A stretch of DNA of 64,000 bases from Halorubrum lacusprofundi ATCC 49239 (GTDB taxonomy: Archaea > Halobacteriota > Halobacteria > Halobacteriales > Haloferacaceae): the NCBI RefSeq assembly GCF_000022205.1, contig NC_012029.1, positions 1,240,001 through 1,304,000 on the forward strand. The letters run 5' to 3'. The notes under the pieces are model-generated. The model made no database searches, had not been told where the DNA came from, and saw nothing but the letters and a program-made list of their open reading frames with translations. The translations under genes were made by a program, and so were the position numbers. Positions within the stretch are counted from its first letter, which is position 1; each line of letters begins with the position of its first letter. Of the stretch, positions 28,920 through 40,369 are shown piece by piece.

Positions 28920-28990
28920 TGCAAGGTGGAGCCTCCGACCTCAACGAAGCGAACGGCGAAGCCGTGAGCGAGTAGGGCGGGGGAGTTCAC
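28920..28990 (+). mobile_element. Probable relic right end of an IS200/IS605 (tnpB-type) element
   Basis: CCTCAACGAAGCGAACGGCGAAGCCGTGAGCGAG and the terminal GGGCGGGGGAGTTCAC look like the 3' ends of haloarchaeal IS605/IS1341 elements as I remember them, including the ACGGC-GAA-GCCGT hairpin (28953-28965). No transposase frame remains. The last bases supply the stop codon of the beta-propeller gene (28987-28989, minus). Identification is from memory and needs alignment. Confidence 0.4.
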
Positions 28991-30009
28991 ACCACGACCG
29001 ATCCGAACGGGTACGCCGGCGATTTCGCCGTCCAGACGGTCCCTGACTCGACGTCGACGAGAGAGACGCGGTCGTCGTCGTAGTGCGAGATGGCGATTCG
29101 ACCGCCACTCACAGGGGTTGCGACCAGTCCGGGCGCCGACGTCTCGACGACCGCGCCGTCGAGCGACCGAAGTCGCGGGGCGCTCGCGTCAAGCACCCAC
29201 CAGTCGTCGGCGACTTCGAGAACGTCGACAGGGCGGGAGAACCCGTCGTGGACCGCGATCGGATCCAACTCCCGGTCGAACTCGTGGACGACACCGTCGC
29301 CGCGGCCGGGGACGAACACCCGGTCACCGGTCGCGACGAGGTCGTACGGGTCGGCGCCGACCGCGGCCTCGGCGTGGATCGGCTCTTCGACGGAGAGAGA
29401 ACCCGAATTGTCACCGGTCTCGAAGGCGACAACCCGCGCGCCGCGCTGGTCGACCGCGTATCCCCTGTCCCCGTCCGGCGAGAGCGCGACGCCCTGCACC
29501 CGGGCGTCCGGGCCGGCGTCGATCGCGCCGATCCGCTCGTGGCGCTCGGTGTCGACGACGTCGACGACGCCCTCGCGGCGGCTCCCGGAGTAGAGCCGGT
29601 CGCCGTCCGGGGCGACCGCGACCTCGTGCGGCTCCGCGCCGACCGCGACGCGGTCGACGAGCGTCAGGCGCTCGGAGTCGATAACGGCGAGGGCGTCGCC
29701 GGCGGAGCAGGAGACGTACAACTCCCCGTTCGCGGCCGCGAAGTGCGACGGCCCCAACACACCGGTCTCAATCTGGGTCACCTCGCCGCTCGCGTCGACC
29801 GCGGTGACGGCTCGGTCGCCCATGGTCGCGACGACGGTCCGCCCGCGGCACGTCGTCGCGTGGACCGGATGGCTCCCGACCGGGACTTCACCGAGCCGCT
29901 CTCCCGTGTCGAGCGCGAACAGCGCCAGGAGGTCGTCGCCCTCGCAGGGGACCGCGAGAACGCGGTCGGCGGGGGAGGGGGCGTCGCTCTGCTTGTCCCA
30001 CCCGGTCAT
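28987..30009 (-). CDS. YncE/YVTN-like seven-bladed beta-propeller, no signal peptide
   Basis: The 340-residue protein consists of repeating blades of about 42 residues, such as LALFALDTGERLGEVPVGSH and HEVAVAPDGDRLYSGSRREG. This is typical of 40-residue YVTN beta-propellers. There is no Sec or Tat signal, unlike the related lipoprotein two genes upstream, so it should be cytoplasmic. Its ATG overlaps the stop of the rhodanese-like gene (30006-30009). It is the third gene of an operon starting at 32447. A scaffold or binding role is inferred; no active site is evident. Confidence 0.78.
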   Translation of the reverse strand: MTGWDKQSDAPSPADRVLAVPCEGDDLLALFALDTGERLGEVPVGSHPVHATTCRGRTVVATMGDRAVTAVDASGEVTQIETGVLGPSHFAAANGELYVSCSAGDALAVIDSERLTLVDRVAVGAEPHEVAVAPDGDRLYSGSRREGVVDVVDTERHERIGAIDAGPDARVQGVALSPDGDRGYAVDQRGARVVAFETGDNSGSLSVEEPIHAEAAVGADPYDLVATGDRVFVPGRGDGVVHEFDRELDPIAVHDGFSRPVDVLEVADDWWVLDASAPRLRSLDGAVVETSAPGLVATPVSGGRIAISHYDDDRVSLVDVESGTVWTAKSPAYPFGSVVV

Positions 30010-31085
30010 CCCGTACAGGAGAAGTCGCCGCCGTCGTCATCGCCGCCGACGCTTCCCTCCGTCTCGATCACGACGTTCGTCGCCGTCTCGACTGGGTATC
30101 GGCCGCGGTCGCCCTCGACGTTCGCCCACTCGCCGAAGCCGCCGTCGTACAGCCGCACGTCCTCGAAGCCGATCGCCTTCAGCGTCAGCCACGTCGAGGT
30201 CGGGTCCACGTTGTCGTCGCCGTAGACGACGACAGGCTCGCTCCGGTCCAGTTCAGCGTCGACCTCGTACAGCCGGACGAGCCGGCCCGGATCGGTCATC
30301 CGCCGGCCCGCGACGTTGCCGACCCAGTGCACGTCGACCGCGCCCGGGAGGTGGCCGTGTCGGTCGTGGTCGGCGTTGAGGGCGTCAGAACCCGCGGCGG
30401 CGAGGTACGCCTCCGGCACGCGCACGTCGACGAGCCCCGGACCGTCCCCGTTGAACGTCCCGATCCGGTCGGCGAGCCACTCGCGAGTGACCCACGTCGA
30501 CGCCGCGGGGTCCGGCTCGTACTCTGTCGGCGAGACGCGATCTCGCGACCCCGTCCCGAGTCGACCGTTCCAGGCGGAGAGCCCGCCGTTGAGGACGCGG
30601 ATCGACCCCTCGTGGCCGACCGCGGCGAGCGCGAACGCGACGCGAGTGACGCGGGACCCCACGCTCGCGCCGTAGACGAGCACGTCGTCGTCCGGGGTCA
30701 CGCCGATCTCGCCGAACGCGGACGCGATCGCGTCGGTGTCTGGCACGTCTCCCTCCCCGACATCGTCGGTCGCCTCGCGAGCCGTGATCGCGTCGAACGG
30801 CACGCGCCGAGCCCGGTAGATTCGCTGCTCACGAAACCGCTCTGGGTCGCGCGCGTCGAGGACGACGGTGTCTTCGCGGTTGTCGGCGAGCCAGCTCGGC
30901 CCGACGAAATGCGCCACGTTCCCCGACACGTCGTTTCGCGCCGCCACGTCTGCGGGGGTGGTGACACTGAGACAGCCGGCCGTGCTCGCCGCGCCCGCGA
31001 CGGTCGCGCCCGCGGCGGCTCGAAGCAGGCCGCGGCGGGTCGCGTTCTCCGCGTCGCCGTCGGCGTTCGGTGTCTCTCGCGTCAT
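30006..31085 (-). CDS. Tat-exported tandem rhodanese-fold lipoprotein without catalytic cysteine
   Basis: The 359-residue protein has a Tat signal (TRRGLLRAAAGATVAG) and a lipobox Cys38, so it is anchored on the cell surface. Two rhodanese domains follow (about residues 60-180 and 195-335). Thiosulfate sulfurtransferases keep a cysteine in the second domain's active loop; here the loop reads VVVYGDDNVDPTSTW and has none. The only other cysteine is Cys357 in the C-terminal FSCTG. It may bind rather than transfer sulfur, or use the tail cysteine. It sits in an operon between two propeller genes, beside a sulfur permease. Confidence 0.82.
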   Translation of the reverse strand: MTRETPNADGDAENATRRGLLRAAAGATVAGAASTAGCLSVTTPADVAARNDVSGNVAHFVGPSWLADNREDTVVLDARDPERFREQRIYRARRVPFDAITAREATDDVGEGDVPDTDAIASAFGEIGVTPDDDVLVYGASVGSRVTRVAFALAAVGHEGSIRVLNGGLSAWNGRLGTGSRDRVSPTEYEPDPAASTWVTREWLADRIGTFNGDGPGLVDVRVPEAYLAAAGSDALNADHDRHGHLPGAVDVHWVGNVAGRRMTDPGRLVRLYEVDAELDRSEPVVVYGDDNVDPTSTWLTLKAIGFEDVRLYDGGFGEWANVEGDRGRYPVETATNVVIETEGSVGGDDDGGDFSCTG

Positions 31086-32447
31086 CTATCCACAGTAGCA
31101 GTGGTCGTCCATGCACCACGACGCCTCCATCTCACCGAACGTGATCCCGAGCGAGGCGAGCGACGCCTGCACCCGCGACACCGCGTCGCTCTCCGGGCGG
31201 ACGGTACCGGCGGCGGCACCCGTGGGCGCCTCGCCGACCCCGATCGTCTCGACGACCTCGCGGCTCGCGTGGTCGATCACGGCGACCTGGTTGGCGTCTT
31301 GAACCGGGACGTACAGCTTCTCGCGGTTCGGCCCCCACGACGCGGAGATACTGCTTCCGCCTACGTCCAGCGTCGCCTCGTACTCGAAGCTCTTCAAGTC
31401 GATCACACCGACGCCTTCGCCGGGGATGAGGAGGTACGCGGCCTCGTTGTCCGGGGACACCTCGCTCGTGACCGGCGCACCGGGCAGTCCGTCGTCGCGG
31501 GTGATCTTCCCGACCTCCTCGGGGTTCTCGGGGTCGGAGATGTCCCACAGGCTCTCGGAGCCCTCGCGGGGCACCTCGGGGTCGCCGCCGAGCGTCCCCT
31601 CCCCGTTCTCGACGAGGAGGTACTCGCCGTCGAATGCGGCGGTACACATGAACGGGAGGACGTTCCCCTCGGTGACCGGTTCGCCCGAGCCGACGCGCGC
31701 GACCGTCTCGAACGGGTCGACGGTCAACACGCGGATCGCCTCGTCGGCCACGTCGACGACGAACGCGTAGTCGCCGTCGGGCCCGAGCGTCATGTCGCAG
31801 GGGCCGACGTAGCCGGTCTCGATCTGCGCGGTCACCTCGCCGAAGGTGTCGCTGTCGCGGTCGGCGTCGACGCGGAAGATCGCGTGGTTCTCGTCGCCCT
31901 CGGGCTCCATCCCGGTGGTGCCGCCCGAAGCGATCAGCAGGTGGTCGCCGTCGGGAGTCACGTTCGGGTAGTTCGGACCGTAGCCGGTCTCGACGTACGC
32001 GACCTCCTCCAGCGTTCGCTGGTCGATCCCCCGGACGCCGCCGGAGACGTTGAGCCAGAGCACGTCGTGGTCGGCGTCGATCCCGGTGGAGTACTGGTTG
32101 GCTGGAAACGAGGCGGTCGTCCCGAGAAACGCGGAGGTGACCAGCTCGTCCGACTCGGTGTCGATCACGCTGACGGTTCGGTCCCCGTTGTTGAACACGA
32201 ACATCGTCGGCTGGGGGTCGTCTCCGTCGCCTCCCCCACCTCCGCCCCCGGAACAGCCCGCGAGCGCGGTCGTCGCGCCGACGACGCCGGACGTTCGGAG
32301 CAGGCGCCGCCGGTCGATCCCCTCGGCGAAGGGGTTTCGGCGGTCGTCGTTCGCCAGGTCACTCCCCTTCGCGGGACGCGGACCCACCGCCCCCTCCGAG
32401 GGGCGCGAGTCCGCGTCGGTCGTCCCGCAACCGCAGTCGTCGCTCAT
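31086..32447 (-). CDS. Tat-exported YVTN beta-propeller lipoprotein with Cys-rich ends
   Basis: The 453-residue protein starts with MSDDCGCGTTD and has a long cytoplasmic leader. A twin-arginine motif (DRRRLLRTSG) and a lipobox (LAGC, Cys65) follow, then a Gly-rich spacer. The rest is a beta-propeller (FNNGDRTVSVIDTESDELV and similar blades). The C-terminus ends in Cys445, His449, Cys450 and Cys452 (CMDDHCYCG), a likely metal or sulfur site. It is the first gene of the propeller-rhodanese-propeller operon and is divergent from the YeeE/YedE permease gene, 155 bp apart. The substrate is unknown. Confidence 0.78.
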   Translation of the reverse strand: MSDDCGCGTTDADSRPSEGAVGPRPAKGSDLANDDRRNPFAEGIDRRRLLRTSGVVGATTALAGCSGGGGGGGDGDDPQPTMFVFNNGDRTVSVIDTESDELVTSAFLGTTASFPANQYSTGIDADHDVLWLNVSGGVRGIDQRTLEEVAYVETGYGPNYPNVTPDGDHLLIASGGTTGMEPEGDENHAIFRVDADRDSDTFGEVTAQIETGYVGPCDMTLGPDGDYAFVVDVADEAIRVLTVDPFETVARVGSGEPVTEGNVLPFMCTAAFDGEYLLVENGEGTLGGDPEVPREGSESLWDISDPENPEEVGKITRDDGLPGAPVTSEVSPDNEAAYLLIPGEGVGVIDLKSFEYEATLDVGGSSISASWGPNREKLYVPVQDANQVAVIDHASREVVETIGVGEAPTGAAAGTVRPESDAVSRVQASLASLGITFGEMEASWCMDDHCYCG

Positions 32448-32602: not shown

Positions 32603-33811
32603 ATGTTGCTGTCGCCCGTCGCCTACGTCGGCGTCTCCATCGCGGTCGGGTTGTCCTTCGGAATTCTGCTCCAGAAGGCGCGGTTCTGTTTCGTCAGCGC
32701 CTTCCGCGACTTCGTCGCGTTCAAAGACACCCGCGTGCTGAAGGGGCTGCTCGTCGGGATCGCGGTGATGACCGTGTTCTGGAGCGTGCAAGCGACGTTC
32801 GGCTACTTCCGCGGCTTCTGGACGCCCGCGTGGGGGCTCGGATCGCTGTTCGGCGGGTTCGTCTTCGGGCTCGGGATGACCCTCGCCGGCGGCTGCGCGT
32901 CCGGGACCCTCTACCGCGCGGGACAGGGGTACCTCCAGTTCTGGCTCGTCCTCCTGTTCATGTTCGTCGGCTACGTCCTCTTCGCGTTCGCGTTCCCCGT
33001 GGCCGAGACGTACTACTTCCAGACGCTGAACCCGTTCGAGGGGCAGACGCTGTACCTCTCCCTGCCGTTCTCGCCGGCGGTTATCGGGGTCGGCGCCGTC
33101 GCGCTCGGCACCCTCGCGTACGCGTTCGTGAAGGGTCGCAGTCAGCTCCCCGACGACCCCTCCGGCGGGACCGGCGTGGGGACCGACACCCGCGCACAGG
33201 CGGCGATCGGCGCCTCCCGGACGCTCTCGGCCGTCTCGCTCGGGCTGCGCGGCATCGCCGACGGCACCGTCGAATACGGTCGTGCGCTCGCCAGCGACGA
33301 CCGGCCGGTGACGGTCCGGCTCCGCGACTCGTGGGACGCGCGGACCGCGGGCGTGGCGATGGCGCTCGTCGCGAGCCTCTGGTTCTACGTGCACGGCCAT
33401 TGGGCGATCACCGGCAGCGAGGCGCGCTGGGCCGGCTACCTGTTGGCGGGGGCCGGATTCGACGTGGCGAGCGTCGACTACTGGGGGTCGATCCTGTTCC
33501 GCGACGGCAACATCTCGCTGACCATCGACATGGTGATGATCGCGTCGCTGATCGTCGGCTCGTTCGTCGCCGCGTACGCCTCCGGCGACTTCCGGATCCG
33601 GAAGCCGAAGCTGAACCGGGTTCCGAACTACGCGATCGGCGGGCTCCTGATGGGCGTCGGCTCGCGGCTCGCGGCCGGCTGCAACATCGCGAACCTCTTC
33701 TCGGGGATCGCGCTGCTGTCGGTACACTCCTTCATCGCCGGCGCGGGGATCATCCTCGGCGTCTACGTGATGACCCACTACATGTACCGCGAGGTCGGCT
33801 GCGCGATTTAA
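32603..33811 (+). CDS. YeeE/YedE-family sulfur-compound permease
   Basis: The 402-residue membrane protein is built of two similar halves, as in the YeeE/YedE (TsuA) family that imports thiosulfate or related sulfur or selenium species. Conserved cysteines appear at LQKARFCFVSAFRD, GGCASGTLYRAGQG, GSRLAAGCNIANLFSG and the C-terminal EVGCAI. In TsuA such cysteines line the pathway. A soluble insert lies around residues 175-240. TTTACG at 32574-32579 is about 27 bp before the ATG. The tusA and rhodanese genes lie just downstream on the other strand. Confidence 0.9.
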   Translation: MLLSPVAYVGVSIAVGLSFGILLQKARFCFVSAFRDFVAFKDTRVLKGLLVGIAVMTVFWSVQATFGYFRGFWTPAWGLGSLFGGFVFGLGMTLAGGCASGTLYRAGQGYLQFWLVLLFMFVGYVLFAFAFPVAETYYFQTLNPFEGQTLYLSLPFSPAVIGVGAVALGTLAYAFVKGRSQLPDDPSGGTGVGTDTRAQAAIGASRTLSAVSLGLRGIADGTVEYGRALASDDRPVTVRLRDSWDARTAGVAMALVASLWFYVHGHWAITGSEARWAGYLLAGAGFDVASVDYWGSILFRDGNISLTIDMVMIASLIVGSFVAAYASGDFRIRKPKLNRVPNYAIGGLLMGVGSRLAAGCNIANLFSGIALLSVHSFIAGAGIILGVYVMTHYMYREVGCAI

Positions 33812-34337: not shown

Positions 34338-34673
34338 TCAGGCGTCCGCGGGCGCGCCGGTCTCCAGTTCGAAGTCCCACTCCTCGTAGCCGCCGGCCAT
34401 GCTGGCGACGAGCACGTCCTCTTCGACGCCCTCGTAGCTGCTGATCAACATCGCCGCCTGCTTCGACGACTGGCCGACTGGACACGCACAGACCACGTCG
34501 GTGTCGTCCCACTCGATGTCGGGGACCTGGGAGGGGAGATCGCCCAGCGGGACGTTGATCGCGCCGGGGATGTGGCCCTGCTCGTACTGTGCGGGCGGTC
34601 GCGTGTCGATGACGCGGATGTCGCCCGTCTGGACTCGCTCGTTGACTTCGTCGGGGGTGAGTTCTTCGACCAT
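34338..34673 (-). CDS. Single-domain rhodanese with intact active-site loop
   Basis: The 111-residue protein has the N-terminal EELTPDEVNERV and DTRPPAQYEQGHIPGAINVPL motifs and a C-terminal AGGYEEWDFELETG. The active-site loop is CPVGQSSKQAA, so the persulfide-forming cysteine is present, unlike in the exported rhodanese. It would carry or donate sulfane sulfur in the cytoplasm. It starts 2 bp after the end of the tusA gene on the same strand, which is strong evidence for a joint sulfur-relay role. Confidence 0.92.
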   Translation of the reverse strand: MVEELTPDEVNERVQTGDIRVIDTRPPAQYEQGHIPGAINVPLGDLPSQVPDIEWDDTDVVCACPVGQSSKQAAMLISSYEGVEEDVLVASMAGGYEEWDFELETGAPADA

Positions 34674-34675
34674 GA

Positions 34676-34975
34676 TTACTCCTTCCGCAGGAAGATGCGG
34701 TAGCGACCGTCGCCCGATTTCCACACCTTCGCCGTCGCGTCGTCGCCGACCGCCTTCGGGACGTTCTCCGTGCTCGGGACGTGGTCGGTCTTCTGGACCA
34801 GCACGTCGCCCGCGTCGAGCCCCGCGATGCCCTTCTTCGCCTCGACCTGCGGGTACGGGCACACCTCGCCGGTCATGTCCTGTACCTCGGTCGCGTCTGC
34901 CAAGAGCGCCTCGGCGGTCTCGTCGTCGAGCTCGTCGGGCATCTCGACGACGTCGTCCCACGATGGTTGACTCAT
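34676..34975 (-). CDS. TusA-family sulfur carrier
   Basis: From ATG 34975 the 99-residue protein has an acidic helical N-terminal part (residues about 1-30) and a TusA/SirA domain. The sulfur-binding motif is EVCPYPQVEAKKGI, in which the Cys of CPxP accepts persulfide sulfur. It is paired with the rhodanese gene downstream. Next to a YeeE/YedE permease, TusA-like proteins (TsuB/YedF) receive the imported sulfur, so this is the natural cytoplasmic partner. Delivery of sulfur to tRNA thiolation or molybdenum cofactor is also possible. Confidence 0.9.
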   Translation of the reverse strand: MSQPSWDDVVEMPDELDDETAEALLADATEVQDMTGEVCPYPQVEAKKGIAGLDAGDVLVQKTDHVPSTENVPKAVGDDATAKVWKSGDGRYRIFLRKE

Positions 34976-35124
34976 GGGCACGGGTACGTCCGTGACGGGG
35001 TAACGGCTTTCGTGACCGGCAGACATCTCCCGTATCTCTGACGGGGATCGTCGCGCACGACCGCGGTAGCCACCGAGAACGCCGTTTCCGTCGGACTCTT
35101 ATCGGACAGCGATCTACGGGACGC

Positions 35125-36144
35125 ATGAGCGAGTACGCCGTCGACGAATCGACGATCTTCGAGACGCCCCTCGTGAAGCTCGATCTCGACATCGAGTCGG
35201 ACGCGGACGTGTACGCGAAAGCCGAGTGGTTCAACCTCTACGACGCCCCGCACGGCGGGGGGTCGATCAAATCGCGGATCGCGAAGGGAATGATAGACGG
35301 TGCCGAGGAACGCGGCGACCTCGATCCCGGCGTCACCGTGATCGAGCCGACCTCCGGCAACACCGGCAGCGAGATCGCGCGCCTCGCAGGGTCCCGGGGC
35401 TACGACGTGGAGATCGTCATGCCCGACAACGCCGCGGGCGGGAAGGTCGACGCTGTCCGCGACGCCGGCGCGGAGATCCACTTCGTCGACGCCAATCTCG
35501 GCTACGACGCCGTCATCGAGCGCTGCGAGGAGATCATCGCCGAAGACCCCGAGGCGTACTTCCGGCCGAACCAGTACGAGAACCCCGACAACCCCGGTAC
35601 CCACGAGCGCACGACCGCTCGAGAGATTTACGGGGCGACGGACGGCGAGGTGACCCACTTCGTCGCCGGCGTCGGTACCGGGGGAACGATCACCGGAACC
35701 GGTCGCGGGCTGACCGACCTCAGCGACGGCGCGGTCGAGATCGTCGGCTTCGAGCCCGACGAACAGCTCCACGCCATCGACGGGCTGAAATACCTCAAAT
35801 CGGGCGACCACTACCACCCCGACACGTACGACGAGTCGGCCCTCGACCGGACAGAGTACGTCACGACCTCGGACGCGTACGACCGCGCTCGGGCCCTCCG
35901 CGAACGCTACCTGAACCGCGAGATCGAGATCGCGGATCCCGGCCAACACGACGAGGCGACGATCCGAGAGCATCTCCGGGTCGACGACCAGTTCGTCGTG
36001 GGCACGTCCGCGGGCGGCGGTGCGGCGGCGGTCGCGGGACTCGACGAGGCCGGCGCCCTCGCGGACGACGACGTGGTCGTGTTCATGCTGTGTGACCGCG
36101 GCGACAAGTACGCGGACATCCCGCTCTGGGAGGAGTACTTATAA
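35125..36144 (+). CDS. PLP-dependent cysteine synthase (CysK/CysM family)
   Basis: The 339-residue enzyme forms cysteine from an activated serine and a sulfur donor. It has the PLP lysine in GGGSIKSRIAKGMI, the substrate loop PTSGNTGSEIARLAG, and the phosphate-binding GVGTGGTITGTGRGL. Whether it uses sulfide, thiosulfate or a protein thiocarboxylate cannot be read directly. The neighbouring CysO-like carrier and E1 suggest the last, as with mycobacterial CysM. A TTATC box at 35099-35103 is about 25 bp upstream. No serine acetyltransferase gene is in the window. Confidence 0.9.
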   Translation: MSEYAVDESTIFETPLVKLDLDIESDADVYAKAEWFNLYDAPHGGGSIKSRIAKGMIDGAEERGDLDPGVTVIEPTSGNTGSEIARLAGSRGYDVEIVMPDNAAGGKVDAVRDAGAEIHFVDANLGYDAVIERCEEIIAEDPEAYFRPNQYENPDNPGTHERTTAREIYGATDGEVTHFVAGVGTGGTITGTGRGLTDLSDGAVEIVGFEPDEQLHAIDGLKYLKSGDHYHPDTYDESALDRTEYVTTSDAYDRARALRERYLNREIEIADPGQHDEATIREHLRVDDQFVVGTSAGGGAAAVAGLDEAGALADDDVVVFMLCDRGDKYADIPLWEEYL

Positions 36145-36172: not shown

Positions 36173-36436
36173 CTACTGCCCGCCGCTGGCCGCCGGGATG
36201 ACTCGGACCTGCGCGTCGTCGGGCACTTCCGCATCGAGGCTGTCGACGGGCGTTCCCTCGACGTACACGTTGATGAACTCCTTGATCTCGCCGTCTTTGA
36301 TCACGCTGTCTCTGAGTTCTGAGCCGTGTTCGTCCGCGTGGTTCTCGAACAGCTCGCGGACCGTCTCGCCGTCGACGTCGACCTCGGAGGTCGAGGACCC
36401 TCCGACCAGCACGGCCGGCAGTTTGATCGTTGCCAT
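36173..36436 (-). CDS. Ubiquitin-like sulfur carrier (MoaD/ThiS/CysO/SAMP type) ending in GGQ
   Basis: The 87-residue beta-grasp protein has TIKLPAVLVGGSSTSEV at the N-terminus, IKEFINVYVEGTPVDSLD in the middle and VRVIPAASGGQ at the end. The FINVYV and VIPAASGG segments resemble mycobacterial CysO more than MoaD. Sulfur carriers and SAMPs are activated at a terminal diglycine; here one extra Gln follows (Gly85-Gly86-Gln87), so trimming would be needed first. A minus-strand TTTTTGAG box at 36459-36466 is about 27 bp from the ATG. The E1 gene begins 230 bp away, divergently. Confidence 0.88.
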   Translation of the reverse strand: MATIKLPAVLVGGSSTSEVDVDGETVRELFENHADEHGSELRDSVIKDGEIKEFINVYVEGTPVDSLDAEVPDDAQVRVIPAASGGQ

Positions 36437-36665: not shown

Positions 36666-37529
36666 ATGAGCGATCTCGACCTCGATCCCACCCAGCTCGA
36701 CCGCTACTCCAGACACATCATCATGGACGACGTGGGCCCCGAGGGCCAGAAGGCCCTGCTCGACGCCGAGGTGCTCGTGCTCGGCGCGGGCGGGCTCGGT
36801 GCGCCGATCATCCAGTACCTCGCGGCCGCCGGCGTCGGCACCATCGGGATCGCCGACGACGACGAGGTGGAGCTGTCGAACCTCCAGCGACAAGTCATCC
36901 ACGGGAACGACGACGTGGGGCGCAAGAAGGTCGACTCCGCCGCCGACTTCGTCGCGCAGCTCAACCCGGACATCGACGTGCGAAAACACGAAATGCGGGT
37001 CACCGCCGACAACATCGAGGAGCTCATCTCCGGCTACGACTTCGTCGTCGACGGGACGGACAACTTCGCGACCCGGTACCTCGTCAACGACGCCTGTACG
37101 CTCGCCGGCGTCCCCTTCTCGCACGGCTCCATCTTCAAGTTCGAGGGGCAGGTGACGACGTTCGCGGGCGGCGAGGACTCGCCGTGTTACCGCTGTCTGT
37201 TCCCCGAGGCGCCGCCGGCGGGGATGGTTCCGAACTGCTCGACCGCGGGCGTCCTCGGCGTCCTCCCGGGTACCGTCGGCTGCCTGCAGGCGACCGAGAC
37301 GGTCAAACACATCATCGGCGAGGGCGAGACGCTCGACGGCTCCATGCTCTTCTTCGACGCGCTCGACATGGAGTTCGACAAGGTGGAGATCCCCAAGCGC
37401 GACGACTGCCCCGTCTGCGGTGACGACCCCGCCATCGAGTCGGTCCACGACGTGGAGTACTCCGCCTCCTGCGCCATCGACATCGGCGACGACGACGAAT
37501 CCGAGCCGGAGATCGAAGCGAGCGACTGA
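36666..37529 (+). CDS. ubaA: E1-like sulfur-carrier adenylyltransferase (MoeB/ThiF/UbaA)
   Basis: This enzyme adenylates the C-terminal glycine of small beta-grasp proteins so that they can be made thiocarboxylates or attached to lysines. The 287-residue protein has RYSRHIIMDDVGPEGQ, the nucleotide loop GAGGLG (residues 40-45), Asp130 in VDGTDNF, the catalytic Cys191 in PNCSTAG, and zinc cysteines 174/177 and 248/251. There is no C-terminal rhodanese domain, so the separate rhodanese or TusA would have to supply sulfur. In Haloferax a single UbaA serves all SAMPs; this may be that enzyme. Confidence 0.9.
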   Translation: MSDLDLDPTQLDRYSRHIIMDDVGPEGQKALLDAEVLVLGAGGLGAPIIQYLAAAGVGTIGIADDDEVELSNLQRQVIHGNDDVGRKKVDSAADFVAQLNPDIDVRKHEMRVTADNIEELISGYDFVVDGTDNFATRYLVNDACTLAGVPFSHGSIFKFEGQVTTFAGGEDSPCYRCLFPEAPPAGMVPNCSTAGVLGVLPGTVGCLQATETVKHIIGEGETLDGSMLFFDALDMEFDKVEIPKRDDCPVCGDDPAIESVHDVEYSASCAIDIGDDDESEPEIEASD

Positions 37530-39940: not shown

Positions 39941-40369
39941 CTACCGCTCACTCCGCACCGCGACCGTCTCCTGTTCAAACCCGTCGTCGTCCCCACGCCA
40001 GCGCCACGAGCCGACGAACGGGTAGCCGTCGAGCGCGCAGATGACGTACGAGTGGCCGGGCCACGTCGCCCGCGCGGCGTCCGTCTCGCTCGGGTGGGTC
40101 GGCCCGGTCGGGTGCGAGTGGTAGAACCCAACTACGTCGAGTCCGTCGTCCTCGACCCGCTCGATGAGTTCGAGCTGTTCCTCGGGATCGATCAGGTACC
40201 GTATCTGGGGGGTTTCGGCGACGTTCTCCGCCTCGTAGGTCTCCGTGACGACGCTCGCCCCTCCGTCGGTCCCGTGGGTGCCAGCGAGGACGCCACAGAT
40301 CTCCGCCTCCCCACCGCCGTACGCGCGGTATACGATGTCGTCGTAGGCCGCTCGGCTGAGTTCGATCAT
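39941..40369 (-). CDS. JAMM/Mov34 metalloprotease (Mec/HvJAMM-like)
   Basis: The 142-residue protein has a complete JAMM zinc site: Glu23 in AEICGVLAG, His84 and His86 in FYHSHPTGP, Ser94 and Asp97 in HPSETD. These enzymes cleave after the diglycine of beta-grasp modifiers. Mycobacterial Mec releases cysteine from CysO, HvJAMM1 removes SAMPs, and QbsD-type enzymes trim residues beyond GG. A carrier ending in GGQ is encoded 3.5 kb away, which makes the trimming role attractive. A TATA-like box near 40394-40399 (minus strand) is about 27 bp upstream. Confidence 0.92.
   Translation of the reverse strand: MIELSRAAYDDIVYRAYGGGEAEICGVLAGTHGTDGGASVVTETYEAENVAETPQIRYLIDPEEQLELIERVEDDGLDVVGFYHSHPTGPTHPSETDAARATWPGHSYVICALDGYPFVGSWRWRGDDDGFEQETVAVRSER

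Follow-up and report, generated by a model that had tools for sequence, protein, structure and literature searches.

A haloarchaeal CysO-like sulfur carrier with a conserved post-diglycine tail is a probable pro-form for a JAMM protease in a putative cysteine route

Our analysis of the Halorubrum lacusprofundi ATCC 49239 genome, centered on a stretch of 64,000 nucleotides (the window; contig NC_012029.1, positions 1,240,001 to 1,304,000), points to a haloarchaeal cysteine route resembling the CysO/CysM/Mec+ system, in which the sulfur carrier would be a pro-form matured by a JAMM protease, a reading that we consider reasonably probable. The carrier is probably produced in an inactive form that becomes usable only after clipping, since relatives in many species have similar short tails and tails are found only together with JAMM. 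This agrees with the original prediction of a pro-form activated by proteolysis, and the linked JAMM is a catalytically intact member of the HvJAMM1 family. The observations that carry the argument are the tail and its conservation, the surrounding gene module, the intact JAMM residues and the association of tails with JAMM.

The carrier gene (36173..36436, reverse strand) encodes an 87 amino acid CysO-like beta-grasp protein with a ThiS domain (Pfam PF02597), ending in RVIPAASGGQ. Reading the reverse strand from 36184 to 36173 gives GGC GGG CAG TAG, and hence a C-terminus SGGQ followed by the stop codon, as originally claimed. The diglycine codons GGC GGG (Gly85-Gly86; 36179..36184) contain the predicted JAMM cleavage position, after Gly86, and the CAG codon of Gln87 (36176..36178) provides the one-residue tail, as read from the ORF and its orthologues. 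The possibility that the carrier is SAMP1 (ubiquitin-like small modifier protein 1) was rejected, as it scores 41.3 bits against the NCBIfam SAMP1 model NF041918, under the 60-bit cut-off; the SAMP1 of H. lacusprofundi itself scores 130.9 bits. A profile of the carrier family found its best matches in the CysO-type chains 4n6e_B (5e-13) and 3dwg_C (6e-8), which we take to be an actinobacterial CysO-type chain and Mycobacterium tuberculosis CysO, respectively, and matched SAMP1 structures at 6e-5. Judged by these profile matches, actinobacterial CysO lies closer to the carrier than MoaD/SAMP1 does. Copies of the carrier are also found on plasmids of three haloarchaeal genera (NZ_CP053942.1, NZ_CP054588.1, and NZ_CP101459.1), where they are annotated merely as MoaD/ThiS family protein.

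The orthologue alignment proposed with the original prediction shows that the extra residue is conserved, and not that every orthologue ends in GG, the outcome named as speaking against it. Exactly one residue follows the diglycine in 20/20 carrier-bearing Halorubrum genomes, being Arg in 18 and Gln in two (the window carrier and that of H. kocurii), with carrier identities of 82-100% across these genomes and 82-94% for the loci in named Halorubrum species. Among 39 carrier loci from named genomes, 36 have a tail of one (28 loci), two (5) or three residues (3), and the other three, two of Haloquadratum type (L057 and L060) and one from Halorutilus (L070), end in GG. Outside Halorubrum the tail sequence varies; over all loci, the tails include R, Q, RR, AR, QA, QF, QSK, TRA, TGQ, and G, with SR and CSP in additional genomes. 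The diglycine itself is invariant in 16/16 aligned orthologues.

The module around the carrier includes both a cysteine synthase and JAMM. The carrier gene is convergent with a gene encoding a cysteine-synthase-like PLP enzyme (35125..36144, forward strand; Pfam PALP), which likely performs the sulfur acceptor step, and divergent from a gene for an E1/UbaA-type adenylating enzyme (36666..37529, forward strand; above the cut-off of NCBIfam NF047750). The latter is one of two UbaA-type E1 genes in the genome, the other being located at L079:1429-2241. The carrier, this second E1, and the cysteine synthase are present together in 20/35 Halorubrum genomes, and none of the three is found in the other 15 (20/20 vs. 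0/15; raw Fisher p=3e-10, with ancestry left uncorrected). As the window E1 copy occurs among Halorubrum only in carrier-bearing genomes, this distribution suggests that it is dedicated to the carrier; an E1 lies near the carrier in nearly all orthologues. The cysteine-synthase-like enzyme has a generic match to the cysKM family, below every NCBIfam cut-off, and no CysM-specific match among the matches listed; judged by these matches, it is a distinct cysKM-like subfamily. In two carrier-bearing Halorubrum genomes (G025 and G027) the cysteine synthase is split or frameshifted, through decay or assembly error. In Natrialbaceae (L062:9029-10246 and L101:5739-6956), a gene of the cystathionine gamma-synthase family replaces it beside the carrier, E1, and JAMM, hinting that the acceptor enzyme may have been swapped between lineages.

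Three further genes of the module encode a TusA-like sulfurtransferase (34676..35026, reverse strand; Pfam PF01206), a single-domain rhodanese (domain region 34338..34670, reverse strand, with the ORF open further upstream; Pfam PF00581), and a YeeE/YedE (TsuA-type) sulfur-compound transporter (32603..33811, forward strand; Pfam PF04143, with TsuA models below cut-off). Adjoining the transporter, at 28987-32447, are genes for two beta-propeller-like proteins and a two-domain rhodanese precursor, which possibly form with it an extracytoplasmic sulfur-handling set.

The candidate maturation enzyme is a JAMM/MPN+ metalloprotease (39941..40369, reverse strand), a desampylase of the HvJAMM1 family with homology to PfJAMM1, which scores 151.4 bits against the NCBIfam desampylase model NF041370, above the 130-bit cut-off. 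It has the catalytic residues E23, H84, H86, S94, and D97, which are invariant in diverse relatives. Its gene is 3,505 bp from that of the carrier, in line with the 3.5 kb first given. JAMM lies within the stretch examined around the carrier in 35/39 loci, and in Halorutilus and Ods archaea its gene directly precedes that of the carrier, a gene order like that of mec-cysO, presumably the arrangement in Mycobacterium. JAMM is encoded in 35/35 Halorubrum genomes, including those that have no carrier, which rules out a JAMM dedicated to the carrier in this genus. In two of the carrier-less genomes (G026 and G034) the JAMM gene contains an internal stop, from decay or assembly error. The bare-GG carriers (L057, L060, L070, and a fourth in G044) still have JAMM nearby, so tail removal is not its sole task. 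A second JAMM, L111 (G000:C2:2393000-2403000), adjoins a cytidylyltransferase-like gene, a pairing that has been described in archaea (PMC2948915).

Tails are by no means unusual on haloarchaeal SAMPs, contrary to what the original prediction implies: between a quarter and a third of the SAMP1 sequences sampled are tailed. In H. lacusprofundi itself, SAMP1 ends in GGAVGR (L073:1492-1776; G000:C2, about 1,991,360) and a SAMP3-like protein in GGCEV (L072:1489-1776; about 1,563,600), so that with GGQ all three diglycine carriers found in this genome are tailed. We therefore compared tails with JAMM presence across 116 Halobacteria genomes, reading SAMP1 tails strand-aware with tblastn and scoring JAMM as present when a match to the JAMM of the window reached E ≤ 1e-6, a threshold that a diverged JAMM could escape; 8 of the 28 JAMM-less genomes were assigned by subtraction from the 116. 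SAMP1-type tails were present in 27/89 sequences where the genome encodes an HvJAMM1-type JAMM, vs. 0/27 where it does not; these counts include, twice, an implausibly long Arg-rich reading from genome G047, and become 25/87 and an unchanged 0/27 when it is left out. For SAMP3-like proteins, the corresponding figures were 19/32 and 0/13. Counted by genome, a tailed SAMP1 or SAMP3-like protein occurs in 34/88 with JAMM vs. 0/27 without (p=2e-5), and by genus in 12/34 vs. 0/13 (p=0.01). The association across these genomes is good but not conclusive, because an independent-pair test on the SAMP1 tree (0.8 concordant and 0 discordant pairs) was powerless.

Two further features of these families were recorded. 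In three SAMP3-like sequences (L276 in G065, L234 in G066, and L285 in G127), the reading continues past GG into the conserved YRGISRRL of the neighboring gene; these longer tails amount to naturally occurring linear fusions, which cleavage behind GG would have to separate. At L075:1033-1788 (G000:C2, about 1,906,130), a protein of the ThiS fold has Cys-Cys at its C-terminus in place of Gly-Gly; Makarova and Koonin (2010; PMC2948915) noted proteins of this kind as arCOG00539.

The restriction of tails to JAMM-bearing genomes is also what would be expected if the tail were merely permitted. It could arise by stop-codon loss (TGA to CGA, giving Arg, or TAG to CAG, giving Gln) and be tolerated, with no gating function, since a JAMM retained to free cysteine and to de-sampylate would take it off anyway. 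In favor of this explanation, which we judge unlikely but worth weighing seriously, 13/36 carrier tails have CGA or CAG as their first codon, a single transition away from a stop, gain and loss are frequent, with at least 11 tail changes on the SAMP1 tree, and bare-GG orthologues retain JAMM. The last point, seen in 3/39 orthologues, also means that some versions of the system manage without trimming. Against it, codon-level constraint in Halorubrum and the limit of one to three residues point to some selection on the tail and its length. At codon 87, pairwise diversity among 24 close orthologues is 0.00, 0.16, and 0.39 at the first, second, and third positions, compared with 0.39 on average for the fourfold sites of the carrier gene and 0.63-0.78 in the 3' flank; the first base is constant and the second has changed twice (CGG/CGA to CAG). 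This pattern suggests protein-level constraint on the tail residue, as supporting rather than decisive evidence because this short gene also has some invariant fourfold sites. As for length, stop-codon loss would be expected to leave at most three residues roughly 13% of the time, and all carrier tails have one to three.

A different peptidase, such as a general carboxypeptidase acting on C-terminal Arg or Gln, might remove the tail and leave JAMM only the release of cysteine or the removal of SAMP conjugates. Single basic or polar residues should be easy carboxypeptidase substrates, and JAMM stays with the bare-GG carriers; however, tails are missing class-wide wherever the HvJAMM1-type JAMM is missing, and HvJAMM1 is known to cut exactly at GG (PMC4443979), which makes this option improbable. 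We give still less weight to an E1 that accepts the tailed carrier, or to a role of the tailed protein that is independent of the thiocarboxylate, since Gly-Gly is kept in all orthologues with an E1 near in nearly all, and a SAMP1 with a blocked C-terminus is non-functional in vivo without HvJAMM1 (PMC4443979). Lastly, a strain-specific mutation or sequencing artefact can be ruled out for practical purposes, for although Gln itself is rare, an extra residue occurs throughout carrier-bearing Halorubrum and in most other genera.

The reading that we favor, maturation of the carrier by JAMM, has precedents. In Wolinella (HcyS/HcyD) and Pseudomonas (QbsE/QbsD), short residues after GG are removed by a JAMM protease before thiocarboxylation, on routes to homocysteine and thioquinolobactin, respectively. 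The carrier described here has the encoded post-diglycine residue and the linked, catalytically intact JAMM of this kind of system, in archaeal genes. The analogy to QbsE and HcyS drawn in the original prediction was fair, but sequence and gene content place CysO with Mec+ nearer. In the mycobacterial MoeZR/CysO/CysM/Mec+ route, Mec+ hydrolyses CysO-cysteine, that is, carrier-Gly-Gly-Cys (PMC3227635). The haloarchaeal module shares with it a carrier, an E1, a cysteine synthase, and a JAMM as one set; it differs in that the rhodanese is a separate gene, the synthase belongs to a distinct cysKM-like subfamily, and the carrier has an encoded one-residue tail, whereas M. tuberculosis CysO (3dwg_C) ends in GG.

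In Haloferax, HvJAMM1 cuts a linear SAMP1-MoaE fusion precisely behind the C-terminal Gly, and the fusion sustains DMSO respiration in the presence of jamm1 but not in its absence (PMC4443979); the cut after GG is the one proposed here, although the substrate in that case was an engineered fusion. Archaeal SAMP precursors exist in Caldiarchaeum subterraneum, where CsJAMM cleaves them after GG, and the accessible part of that report describes no tie to cysteine synthesis, unlike the route proposed here (PMC6043591). Operon types 4c and 4e, described by Iyer, Burroughs and Aravind (2006), combine a ThiS/MoaD-like protein, an E1, and a JAB protein with a cysteine synthase (4c) or an O-acetylhomoserine sulfhydrylase (4e), and the authors foresaw that JAB would free the C-terminus of fused ThiS/MoaD (PMC1779556). 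As given in the accessible portion of that paper, these types are mainly bacterial, the only archaeon in 4e being Pyrobaculum, the type 4c E1 is fused to rhodanese, and short tails go unmentioned, whereas the present module is haloarchaeal, has separate E1 and rhodanese genes, and includes a tailed carrier (PMC1779556).

Based on these precedents, we propose a five-step route in which each biochemical step, as well as the origin of the sulfur and the identity of its acceptor, is assigned by inference, with steps two to five shown elsewhere for relatives. Translation would give carrier-GG-Gln (carrier-GG-Arg in most relatives), which the HvJAMM1-type JAMM would cut after Gly86. The dedicated E1 would then adenylate the exposed glycine, and the rhodanese and TusA-like proteins would relay sulfur, probably from imported thiosulfate, to form the thiocarboxylate. 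The cysteine-synthase-like enzyme, with O-acetylserine or O-phosphoserine as the candidate acceptor, would use this thiocarboxylate to produce carrier-cysteine and, finally, the same JAMM would hydrolyse carrier-Gly-Gly-Cys to release free cysteine. One protease could perform the second and fifth steps because both are chemically the same GG-X cut. Trimming is taken to be constitutive, which explains everything seen, rather than the control step suggested in the original prediction.

JAMM thus likely also releases cysteine from the carrier, in the role of Mec+, and de-sampylates. The simplest reading is that a single GG-X hydrolysis serves three uses, namely maturation (X being the Arg or Gln tail), cysteine release (X being Cys), and de-sampylation (X being a Lys side chain). 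De-sampylation is established for HvJAMM1; cysteine release is proposed from gene content and the mycobacterial precedent; and maturation is argued for by the tail, its conservation, the tail-JAMM association, and the published cleavage by HvJAMM1 and CsJAMM. More tentatively, where a haloarchaeon encodes an HvJAMM1-type protease, it is possible that several carriers and modifiers (the CysO-like protein, SAMP1-like and SAMP3-like proteins) are all produced as tailed pro-forms, with one JAMM gating their entry to E1 and also removing products and conjugates, and with the tail residue mimicking carrier-Gly-Gly-Cys. In that case, JAMM would be contested between the supply of free carrier on one side and the release of cysteine and de-sampylation on the other.

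Taken at this strength, the module, which is annotated only as a MoaD/ThiS family protein, an E1, and a desampylase, suggests that haloarchaea make cysteine in protein-bound form. It also predicts for archaeal JAMM proteases a housekeeping role in carrier maturation, beyond the removal of SAMP conjugates. Tailed carriers would be dead without JAMM, and deletion of JAMM in species with tailed carriers would cause defects in sulfur amino acids and cofactors. If this is true, work in species with bare-GG SAMPs may miss the maturation step.
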